A stretch of DNA of 22,903 bases. Source: a virus. Shown in pieces: positions 2,486 through 21,259 of the stretch. The notes beneath the pieces are model-generated. The model searched no databases. It saw nothing but the letters and a program-made list of their open reading frames with translations, and had not been told where the DNA came from. Every line of letters begins with the position of its first letter. Position 1 is the stretch's first letter. A program made the translations under genes and the position numbers. The stretch lies in the IMG/VR virus record IMGVR_UViG_3300021354_000035, positions 1 through 22,903 of that record, one strand, 5' to 3'.

Positions 2486-2522
2486 TAGGTAAAAACTGTT
2501 AAATTGAAAATGTAGTAAAACT

Positions 2523-2559
2523 GGGACTTCCTCAAAAGGGGAGTCCCTTTTATTTTTTT
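2523..2559 (+). terminator. Rho-independent terminator
   Basis: A 9-bp stem (GGGACTTCC with GGGAGTCCC, one G-U pair) with a short A-rich loop is followed at once by TTTTATTTTTTT. It closes the capsid/decoration unit and separates it from the connector and tail genes, which would lower tail-gene expression relative to capsid. Confidence 0.88.
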
Positions 2560-17063: not shown

Positions 17064-17137
17064 AATTTCCCCTTTAAAGACTGTAGTTTCTTCTTAATTA
17101 CAAGGGGTTTATATAAGGACATACCCTAATGTGTTTT

Positions 17138-17178: not shown

Positions 17179-17264
17179 ATATCGGACAACCGCCTTAAAA
17201 AAATAATGGTGTAAGTGCATGAAATTTCAAGAAAAAGTCATGCAAAAATAGGACATTGACAAGT

Positions 17265-17301
17265 ATAACAAAGTAAATTTTGGGGCAATAACAAAGTAAA
17301 T
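17265..17301. repeat. 14-bp exact direct repeat, 23-bp period
   Basis: ATAACAAAGTAAAT occurs at 17265-17278 and again at 17288-17301. The spacing is near two turns of DNA, and the copies are in the AT-rich part of the non-coding region. Confidence 0.7.
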
Positions 17302-17478: not shown

Positions 17479-17552
17479 AAACTTTACAATTCCATGTCTA
17501 CAACTTTACAATTATCCGCCAAAACTTTACAAAAATGTCTACAACTTTGTTG
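17476..17552. repeat. Iteron-like array, four units with ~21-bp period
   Basis: The core AACTTTACAA occurs at 17480-17489, 17502-17511 and 17523-17532, and a variant AACTTTGTTG at 17543-17552. Start-to-start spacings are 22, 21 and 20, so all units face the same side of the helix. Units 2 and 4 are preceded by TGTCTAC and units 1 and 3 by a C-A-A-A context, giving an alternating pattern. Phased arrays of this kind bind initiator or partition proteins, or repressors. No candidate binding protein is next to it. Confidence 0.72.
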
Positions 17553-17623: not shown

Positions 17624-17661
17624 ACAGGGCTGTATTTGGCAGTTACTAGCTATTAGGTGGA

Positions 17662-17711
17662 AAGCCGCAAAAACCCTAACTTACTGCATCCTACATTGGC
17701 GGCTTAACGCC
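17662..17711. promoter_or_regulatory. Further stem-forming block next to the junction RNA
   Basis: AAGCCGC (17662-17668) pairs with GCGGCTT (17699-17705). Alternatively GGCG (17698-17701) pairs with CGCC (17708-17711) around a six-base loop. The two folds exclude each other, as in attenuators. Direction and role are not known. Confidence 0.4.
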
Positions 17712-17712
17712 C

Positions 17713-17785
17713 AAAAAATTAGGTGGGGGCGGTCTGCACGGACAGACATGGTAGGCGAAAGGGGAAAACGCCTCGCCCCCGTTGT
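17713..17785 (-). ncRNA. Three-way-junction RNA in the 3' UTR of the exonuclease gene, with anti-Shine-Dalgarno loop
   Basis: Read leftward, starting 5 bases after the exonuclease stop, three perfect helices nest. The outer stem is GGGGGCG/CGCCCCC (17780-17774 with 17731-17725). Hairpin B is AGGCG/CGCCT (17773-17769 with 17757-17753) and its 11-base loop reads TTTTCCCCTTT. Hairpin A is GTCTG/CAGAC (17747-17743 with 17736-17732). Zero, five and zero bases link them, a clean three-way junction, followed by ACCTAATTTTTT as a weak terminator. The C-rich loop is complementary to the AAAGGGGAAAA ribosome site of the exonuclease gene and to related sites elsewhere, so it may act as a regulatory RNA or simply as a branched terminator. 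The fold works on either strand; the leftward reading is preferred for the T run and loop. Confidence 0.6.
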
Positions 17786-18532
17786 TTAGTTTAAACCACT
17801 TTTCAGTTTGTAAATTTTAAGTAATGCTAAAAACATTTCGTAGCCATCACGAAGGTCTTGCTCTTTATGCTCGTATATTGCTACCTCGCCAGTTTCGCCA
17901 TTAATGTAAACATTCGCACACCTAGCAGTAGGCGCTAAAACTTCTCTGTAGGCCGCAAGCTGTAGTGTATGCTCTAAGTAGGGTGTTAGTTCACCAGGGC
18001 TTTTTTCTGTCGTCTTGAAGTCAATAACAACCCCACCAAAGTCATGCTTTGGCTTGCAATATAAATCGCACTTTCCACCATAGCCTTCTTGGTTTACTAG
18101 ACTCTGTTCAGGAATCCATAGCTGCGCCCCAAAATGAGCCGTTACAGCGTCATCTACCTTGCGGACATATTCAGGTATTGCTGGTAGGTATTCTTGGCTG
18201 TAGAAGCTCTCTAAGAAGTCGTGTATTTGAGTGCCCCTAGCCATAGCGTCTTGGGACTTTTTCTTAGACAAGTCCAATATGCGACTAATGTAGTCTTTTT
18301 CTTCTTCTTGCAGACCCCTTGGATTTTCCGCAGCCGCTTTAATGGCCTCTGTTTGAAGCCATGTATTTAGCCCATCTTTAGACAACTGCCCATTTATGGT
18401 GGACACAGACGGTACTAAAGTACCTGGAGCTGCTTTAGCATCACGCAAAGTAACATTTCGCTCTTTGCCGTTTTTACCAGTCATGGTGTAGCGTGGTGCG
18501 CCAGTTAAGGCGCAGTACCAATGTTGTGACAT
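17786..18532 (-). CDS. PD-(D/E)XK exonuclease (RecB/Cas4-like), recombination partner
   Basis: This 248-residue protein has the motifs of a RecB-type nuclease: an early GTQIHDFLE (His104), Glu142, Gly-x-Lys-Cys-Asp156, the active-site strand VVIDFKT with Asp171 and Lys173, and QLAAY (Gln191-x3-Tyr195), typical of the lambda-exonuclease/Cas4 branch. It probably resects double-strand ends to give 3' single strands for the Erf annealase encoded upstream in the same leftward operon, a Red-like pair. The ATG follows AAAGGGGAAAA. The stop is 5 bases before the structured RNA block. Cas4-type Cys ligands for an Fe-S cluster were not evident, so a plain nuclease is favoured. Confidence 0.82.
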   Translation of the reverse strand: MSQHWYCALTGAPRYTMTGKNGKERNVTLRDAKAAPGTLVPSVSTINGQLSKDGLNTWLQTEAIKAAAENPRGLQEEEKDYISRILDLSKKKSQDAMARGTQIHDFLESFYSQEYLPAIPEYVRKVDDAVTAHFGAQLWIPEQSLVNQEGYGGKCDLYCKPKHDFGGVVIDFKTTEKSPGELTPYLEHTLQLAAYREVLAPTARCANVYINGETGEVAIYEHKEQDLRDGYEMFLALLKIYKLKSGLN

Positions 18533-18551
18533 ATTTTCCCCTTTGTACTGC

Positions 18552-19430: not shown

Positions 19431-19663
19431 TTTTCGCCCCTAATTGATGGAAAAGAAGCCAAAGGATTGCCAAAAATATTAGCAAAAGTATTAACTACAT
19501 CTTGTAACAATGGGTCTACATGGCTATTGCGTTTTGGTTTGCCACAGGCTTGGCGAATACAGTCCACTTGCTCTTGGCTTAATTCACCGCCAAATTCCAT
19601 GTCGTCAAGTGCTGACTCTAAGAATTCTTCATGCTCAAGCATTAATTGGTTTAATTCAGACAT
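19427..19663 (-). CDS. Acidic protein, first gene of the recombination operon
   Basis: 78 residues. The first half is an acidic helix (MSELNQLMLEHEEFLESALDDMEFGGELSQEQVDCIRQACGKPKR) and the rest is helical and neutral. No family recognised; DNA mimicry or regulation of recombination is possible given its charge and place. It has the strong AAGGGGAA ribosome site, and the operator-like palindrome (19682-19699) is 19 bases before its start. Its stop overlaps the Erf start (ATGA). Confidence 0.65.
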   Translation of the reverse strand: MSELNQLMLEHEEFLESALDDMEFGGELSQEQVDCIRQACGKPKRNSHVDPLLQDVVNTFANIFGNPLASFPSIRGEK

Positions 19664-19681
19664 TTAAGTTCCCCTTAAAAA

Positions 19682-20604: not shown

Positions 20605-20610
20605 TATTAT
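20582..20610 (+). promoter_or_regulatory. Strong sigma-70-like promoter inside the end of the glycosyltransferase gene
   Basis: TTCACA (20582-20587), exactly 17 bases, then TATTAT (20605-20610) matches the -35/-10 consensus at 5 of 6 positions each. Transcription would begin near 20617, immediately before the structured non-coding block. Confidence 0.62.
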
Positions 20611-20616
20611 TGCAGT

Positions 20617-20940
20617 CCGCACTCCAGGCGTACTAAGCACCTAAATCGGTGGCGTGGAAGAAAAGATAGGCGAGTGATGCACCCCAACTTTGCCTAGTAG
20701 CGTTAAATGGCGACTACACAAGATTTTAGGGACAAGGTGATACAAGACCTTTAATCGACTGAACATTAACCTCGGTAGGACTAGGTGTCAGTATTTCTAA
20801 GACATTGGGTCAGTTGATAGTTTCCTATCACCCTTGGTCAAACTATGTCGTAAATTTGCAACTAAGGGTTTGTCATAGGTGACAATGGCAAAAAACAAGA
20901 AGAAACTGGTATTACTCAATAACGAGTAAACATTTAAGGG
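20617..20940 (+). ncRNA. Candidate structured non-coding RNA or long structured leader
   Basis: About 340 bases carry no believable gene but many helices: CACC/GGTG (20638-20651), TAGGC/GCCTA (20667-20696), GTAGCG/CGACTAC with one bulge (20697-20717), AAGGT/ACCTT (20734-20751), CGACTGA/TCAGTTG (20756-20816) closing CCT/AGG (20770-20779) and TGTC/GACA (20786-20804), TGATAG/CTATCA with a TTTC loop (20815-20830), ACCCTT/AAGGGT (20830-20869), TGTCA/TGACA (20871-20884) and TTACTC/GAGTAA (20912-20929). A good promoter ends at 20610. No known family (tRNA, tmRNA, RNase P, group I/II intron) was recognised. It could also be a regulatory leader for the exported protein gene at 20948. The 3' end is uncertain. 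Confidence 0.55.
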
Positions 20941-20947
20941 GAATTAA

Positions 20948-21259
20948 ATGAAAGACTTTATAGGTAGTTGTTTATTAGGTTTTGTATTAGCAGCTATGTT
21001 TGTCTACGGCATACCTGCTCAAGCACAGACTTACCCAGTAACTGACGCTAGAGGTTATAACCAAGGCACAGTACAAATTAACGGCAACACCGCACAATTT
21101 GTAAACCCTATGGGCTACACCACTCAGACTGCTACAATATACCCTAACCAAGTCGTAATCACGACACCAAACGGTTATACACAAAGCGTTGTTGGTAACA
21201 CAGGTTACACAGTACCACCTAGCCCACCAACACCGTCAAGTCCAAGGGTGTTGCAATGA
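20948..21259 (+). CDS. Small exported protein with repeated GYxQ-type motif
   Basis: 103 residues. Residues 1-26 are a Sec signal peptide (basic start, hydrophobic core IGSCLLGFVLAAMFVYG, A-Q-A cleavage site before QTYP). The mature part holds three ~20-residue units, each with a Gly-Tyr turn (ARGYNQGTVQING, MGYTTQTATIYPN, NGYTQSVVGN), and ends in a Pro/Ser-rich tail. It would reach the periplasm or outer surface and may alter the host envelope, for example to block superinfection; the target is unknown. AAGGGGAA precedes the ATG, and a ~340-base structured region lies upstream. Stop overlaps the next start (ATGA). Confidence 0.72.
   Translation: MKDFIGSCLLGFVLAAMFVYGIPAQAQTYPVTDARGYNQGTVQINGNTAQFVNPMGYTTQTATIYPNQVVITTPNGYTQSVVGNTGYTVPPSPPTPSSPRVLQ

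Follow-up and report, generated by a model that had tools for sequence, protein, structure and literature searches.

The stretch of DNA analysed here, which we refer to as the window, is 22,903 nucleotides long and comes from a virus record (IMGVR_UViG_3300021354_000035). It contains a leftward operon with ERF, SSB and PD-(D/E)XK exonuclease genes. The stop codon of the exonuclease is at 17786, and an RNA with a three-way-junction fold begins 5 nt downstream. The locus is composed as follows:

17786 to 18532, minus strand: PD-(D/E)XK exonuclease (Pfam PF12705, PHROG 298), the gene in whose 3' UTR the RNA sits and which is also a predicted target.
17722 to 17780, minus strand: three-way-junction RNA, supported by its fold, by covariation in relatives and by covariance models (one copy per genome).
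17780 to 17774 with 17731 to 17725, minus strand: outer helix of the junction RNA, GGGGGCG/CGCCCCC; a 3' ACC ends the RNA.
17753 to 17773, minus strand: hairpin B, stem AGGCG/CGCCU, with compensatory changes in relatives (AGGCG, AGGUGA, AGAUGG and others).
17758 to 17768, minus strand: loop of hairpin B, UUUUCCCCUUU, with the core UCCCCUU at 17765 to 17759.
17732 to 17747, minus strand: hairpin C, GUCUGU(CCGU)GCAGAC, with compensatory changes at two pairs.

On the minus strand the order is outer helix, hairpin B, the joint ACCAU, hairpin C and ACCU. The helices have 7, 5 and 5 bp (6 with a closing U-G), and the loop of hairpin B has 11 nt. A sequence-only reading of this DNA had described a perfect three-way junction, gapless at two joints, at this distance from the exonuclease stop, and folding reproduced all of its structural statements. 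The 111-nt fold of 17690-17800 had a z of -3.1 against shuffles.

We used the exonuclease as a query, which returned 205 relatives, and kept 80. In 77 of the 80 fetched relatives the junction lies immediately 3' of the exonuclease. In L059 and L070 an ORF is inserted at the exonuclease end and the junction directly follows the insert. The locus of L017 is cut off, which leaves 79 testable loci, and the junction is present at the exonuclease end in all 79. We read the inserted ORFs as HNH-like; they lie at the extreme 3' end of the exonuclease (L302:3730-4300, L059:2700-3190 and L070), each with the junction RNA after the insert. Pattern scans found additional members, every one of them behind an exonuclease end. 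Matches to the class I pattern (see below) without a preceding exonuclease end had no junction and were treated as chance.

The 51 distinct junction sequences fall into three classes, and the window belongs to class II. In class I the outer helix is 11 bp long and the loop of hairpin C is AUCACGGA; the class III junction is shorter. All 403 pair cells of class I are standard, none is unpaired, and 7 pairs have changed on both sides. In class II, 99.2% of 245 pair cells are standard and 5 pairs have changed on both sides. Kinship within the classes makes shuffles overstate the significance, whereas a slid control retains the relatedness, and in the slid controls standard pairs fell to 33-58%. 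G-U pairs are frequent on the exonuclease strand (56 in 51 folds). Since they would be A-C on the opposite strand, the structured strand is that of the exonuclease. With covariance models, the window and 20 long relatives each gave a single copy (21/21 genomes); the class III copy in G015 was a weak match (21 bits), yet it is directly visible. Stem B is variable, with UGUGC, UGCGA, CUGGA, UUGGC and more besides the forms listed above, and the loop core UCCCCUU is constant across the 51 distinct sequences. A loop variant found later, in L299 (CCCCCCUUU), keeps CCCCUU and retains pairing with AAAGGGG. Classes I and II also have a conserved ACCA joint and ACC tail. Conservation and covariation in relatives had been set as the test on which the junction could fall, and the outcome was the opposite: 99-100% standard pairs, compensatory stem changes in both classes and a fixed loop core. 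The junction is a real RNA family.

The loop of hairpin C reads CACGGA in class I and UCCGUG in class II (17732-17747 of the window, minus strand). The two are mutual reverse complements, which may reflect inversion, chance or cross-talk between phages.

No Rfam family matched the junction at the gathering threshold, and the weak list up to E = 5 was without a phage antisense family. A nucleotide search of annotated phages and plasmids gave no match in phages and one chance match of 37 nt in a plasmid. Text search, with most subscription papers outside its reach, found no published description of the junction RNA. A tRNA- or tmRNA-like reading of the 7-bp stem and ACC was rejected, as no tRNA was called on the junction, ARAGORN reported none in the window and the Rfam tmRNA model scored 10 bits against a cutoff of 47.

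The loop of hairpin B is complementary to the Shine-Dalgarno (SD) sites of four genes in the window:

18534 to 18544, minus strand: exonuclease SD AAAGGGGAAAA, the full 11-nt loop complement; AAGGGG in 82/86 distinct start contexts of relatives.
17066 to 17075, minus strand: SD AAAGGGGAAA of the 17063 gene, the first gene of the next leftward operon; AAGGGG in 21/22 contexts.
19663 to 19679, minus strand: SD hairpin UUUAAG[GGGAA]CUUAAA of the 19663 gene, the first gene of the recombination operon; AAGGGG in 35/38 contexts.
20931 to 20950, plus strand: SD hairpin CAUUUAA[GGGGAA]UUAAAUG of the 20948 gene, with the start codon within the stem; AAGGGG in 28/36 contexts.

The matches span 11 nt at the exonuclease, 10 nt at the 17063 gene and 8 nt each at the 19663 and 20948 genes. 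These lengths agree with the sequence-only reading, but the exonuclease match had been placed at 18545-18535 and lies at 18544-18534. Counting both strands, AAGGGGA occurs six times in the window: in the loop's own complement, in one terminator and in the SDs of the four named genes. The chance that four of the five non-self sites land in SD windows is about 7e-8. Loop-duplex energy ranked the four genes 1-4 of 41 start regions (-14.7 to -12.3 kcal/mol, with the next at -10.1), and for all four sites the loop is a better pairing partner than a generic 16S tail. The claim that the loop complements four of the phage's own ribosome sites therefore holds, with AAGGGGA SDs at exactly those genes and far above chance.

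The terminator with the sixth copy (2520-2558, plus strand, after gene 2186) has AAGGGGA in its stem. Many of the 21 genomes share this conserved terminator, and pairing between it and the junction loop is conceivable in principle. We also considered a local anti-SD upstream of the targets. In the window a CCCCTT upstream of the 17063 gene pairs with its SD, but since CCCCTT is found in only 2/28 upstream regions of relatives, it is not the general mechanism.

Across the 21 genomes AAGGGGA occurs 158 times, of which 101 are SDs of ORFs, 21 are loop complements and 36 are other sites, many of them the conserved terminator. It is the top 7-mer in SD windows, in 87 of 1220 crude gene calls, and these phages do not use it as a general SD. 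In the same genomes, homologues of the targets have AAGGGG in 56/61 cases (exonuclease 21/21, 19663 gene 17/20, 20948 gene 12/14, 17063 gene 6/6), compared to 0/188 for homologues of late genes, with no capsid or tail gene among the matches, where AAGGA, AGGAG and weak sites prevail (Fisher p ~2e-50, relatedness ignored). The distinct start contexts listed above were taken from all fetched loci, and canonical AAGGAG was never found in them at any of the four genes. Among the controls, AAGGGG was seen in 0/15 distinct contexts of the capsid gene and in 8/50 of SSB, which is in the same operon. Further AAGGGGA genes in the relatives are small unknowns and genes that we read from their sequence as phosphoesterase-like and DnaQ-like, with no recognisable structural genes among them. 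The matching motif is thus confined in relatives to the gene set that the sequence-only reading had named, and the relatives are only a partly independent test, as the four genes were chosen through the match itself. The covariation of loop and ribosome sites that had been looked for was not found. Since both are essentially invariant, the support comes from co-conservation and gene-class specificity and not from co-change. One locus, L024 (loop UAUCCCCUU, SD AAGGGGAUA), was considered as a case of co-change and rejected, as L007 and L032 break the pattern.

The SD of the 19663 gene and that of the 20948 gene each lie inside a small hairpin loop, with the start codon in or beside the stem. The stem at the 19663 gene is closed by the A of the start codon, and relatives show AUCUAA[GGGGAA]UUAGAUG, with a C-G for U-A exchange. 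SD hairpins of at least 6 bp were found at 32% of AAGGGGA sites, compared to 6% with shuffled flanks and 0-4% for other SD types; several homologues of the 20948 gene have short stems only. In the window the exonuclease SD is part of a larger hairpin loop, with GCAGUAC/GUACUGC (18551-18545/18518-18512) as the closing helix. The SD is thus in a hairpin loop at two targets generally and at three in the window, two of these having the start codon inside or adjoining the stem. This arrangement suggests loop-loop pairing between the junction RNA and the predicted SD hairpins of the targets.

We consider it likely from the sequence evidence that the junction is an anti-SD RNA in a 3' UTR which turns down the translation of its own exonuclease and of early genes at the head of operons and spares the late genes. 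The leftward early transcript would run through the 19663 gene, the ERF annealing protein, SSB, the 18755 gene and the exonuclease and end with the junction RNA. The latter may act as a 3'-UTR domain of the recombination-operon mRNA or as a processed small RNA. Once the whole operon is transcribed, the loop would pair with AAGGGGA sites in trans, and in cis at the exonuclease, and block initiation. A kissing complex at the 19663 gene, and likewise at the 20948 gene, would mask the SD and stabilise the stem that contains or adjoins the start codon; at the exonuclease and the 17063 gene the loop would pair with a more open SD. Translation of the early genes would then fall, with a dosage-dependent early shut-off and autorepression of the exonuclease as the outcome. 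The late genes would be spared because their AAGGA/AGGAG sites fit the CCCC loop poorly. The timing would follow from the position, because the RNA is made only once the last early recombination gene is transcribed. The junction RNA is therefore best described as probably a phage-made switch that lowers early protein synthesis, and the circuit is probably wider than self-regulation and splits early from late genes. A more specific form of this idea has two SD variants, AAGGGG in early operon-leading genes and AAGGA/AGGAG in late genes, and an RNA loop similar to the 16S rRNA tail yet specific for AAGGGG; together they would make a translational early-to-late switch through loop-loop pairing that keeps start codons in hairpins. 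We propose this form tentatively and rate it somewhat below even. AAGGGG and AAGGAG pair about equally with a generic 16S tail, and AAGGGG could be a plain strong SD, which is an argument against the regulatory reading.

The same observations were weighed against other functions of the junction. It could be mainly an element for the 3' end of the recombination operon, either a branched intrinsic terminator or a barrier to 3' exonucleases, with the loop match being secondary. Its place immediately after the operon's last gene, the G+C-rich outer stem and the window tail AATTTTTT would fit this, as would the at least 5 T in 8 nt found in 44/72 distinct tails. However, 28/72 tails have at most 4 T, an ACCUNA spacer separates the stem from the U-run, and no terminator was called at the site. 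A U-tract was seen in only part of the relatives, and because it is not conserved the branched terminator proposed as the alternative by the sequence-only reading is weak. Moreover, a terminator does not require that the loop stay fixed while its stem changes, or that other operons have SDs of a matching class. We regard a mainly 3'-end function as unlikely. Much the same low likelihood goes to a loop that serves as an anti-SD weapon against host mRNAs, for translation shut-off or takeover, with the GGGG sites of the phage as strong early SDs hit secondarily or by accident. A CCCCUU loop is able to pair in trans with any AAGGGG SD, and the reviewed phage sRNAs PreS and ipeX target host genes (PMC12197685). 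Yet in the relatives AAGGGG is confined to the same phage genes and shielded in hairpins, and a phage avoiding self-inhibition would lose GGGG from its own SDs and not keep it.

It is very improbable that the junction acts through a bound protein, such as a CsrA-like or a ribosomal one, as a sponge or a protein-controlled 3' UTR. The loop of hairpin C in class I displays ACGGA, which resembles a CsrA site, and the joint ACCA and the tail ACC are the conserved parts in classes I and II. Hairpin C of class II, which includes the window, reads UCCGUG and has no GGA, so that the conserved GGA in hairpin loops of a CsrB-like CsrA sponge is lacking and ACGGA is limited to hairpin C of class I. Nor would a protein site explain why the SDs of a single gene class are exactly complementary to the loop.

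The anti-SD reading has precedents. Small RNAs of low-GC Gram-positive bacteria (RsaE, SprD, RNAIII, FsrA and LhrC) pair a UCCC-containing loop with the SD and block translation initiation (PMC4132741). The junction RNA would share with those of staphylococci and Listeria the principle of a C-rich loop against the SD (PMC4132741); its UCCCCUU exactly complements AAGGGGA at four genes and is conserved in relatives. They are chromosomal and have other folds, whereas the junction RNA is phage-coded, lies in a 3' UTR and forms a three-way junction (the sequence relation was compared via Rfam only), and its loop fits a distinct SD variant of one gene class of the phage itself. Among phage RNAs, c4 of P1/P7 and sar of P22 repress their own phage's genes by pairing at ribosome sites (PMC12197685). 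Each acts on one antirepressor mRNA in lysogeny or immunity control, while the junction RNA has four predicted start sites in three or more early operons, and no Rfam antisense family matches it even at loose thresholds. The RNA ipeX is processed out of a phage porin transcript and, like PreS, acts on host genes, VpdS acts on phage and host mRNAs, and VpdS and PreS work through Hfq (PMC12197685). With the predicted junction RNA these three have in common that they are small trans-acting RNAs from phage genomes, but PMC12197685 does not describe any of them as fitting an SD variant reserved for one class of phage genes. The new elements are a private phage SD variant, a multi-operon early target set and a covarying junction in a 3' UTR.

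If the anti-SD reading is true, these phages have a multi-target translational regulon built on a private SD variant that is read by a phage RNA, and the temporal order of the phage programme is encoded in ribosome sites and not in promoters alone. The junction adds a structured, strongly covarying RNA family without an Rfam match in a widespread uncultured phage group. It could also be of use as an orthogonal translation-tuning tool.

A more distant clade (MW202674 and L274-L279) has an exonuclease that is about 43% identical. Behind the exonuclease this clade, including L272:3720-3778 and L274-L279, has a conserved unrelated-looking fold, UGCGCC...GGCGCA, which exposes UCCUU, part of the 16S anti-SD sequence. 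Coupling of loop and SD was not seen in the clade, where early SDs are mostly of the AGGUGA type. The fold may be a diverged relative of the junction or have arisen independently, and gives no support for the pairing.

A search for the host with the exonuclease in genome contigs found only a 33% relative, in a Syntrophaceae MAG. The Betaproteobacteria-1 RNA (RF02932) is another structured RNA of the same phage group and differs from the junction in place, strand, size and sequence. It is found in 7 relatives (e.g. L004:2632-2755, L046:2643-2769 and L080:3218-3342), on the strand of the 20948 homologue and about 250 nt upstream of it, and the window, where the equivalent gap is 20605-20947, had no match to it. 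Its presence in relatives is a hint that the hosts may be betaproteobacteria and that a second phage RNA may lie close to a target gene.

Other elements surround the junction. A second conserved element, GGGCGTTAAGCCGCC...GCGGCTTTC, follows it at 17660-17712 (minus strand) and in many relatives, and others have a TGGGCGAAAGCGTAAAGAAGCAAGTAGCCCACC-like element in this place. The gap before the 17063 gene contains the short repeats TTGTAAAGTT and TTTACTTTGTTAT (17480-17540 and 17262-17300, minus strand), which are possibly iterons or operator sites. In one relative a tRNA-Asn gene is found directly after the junction RNA (L080:5817-5892, plus strand).
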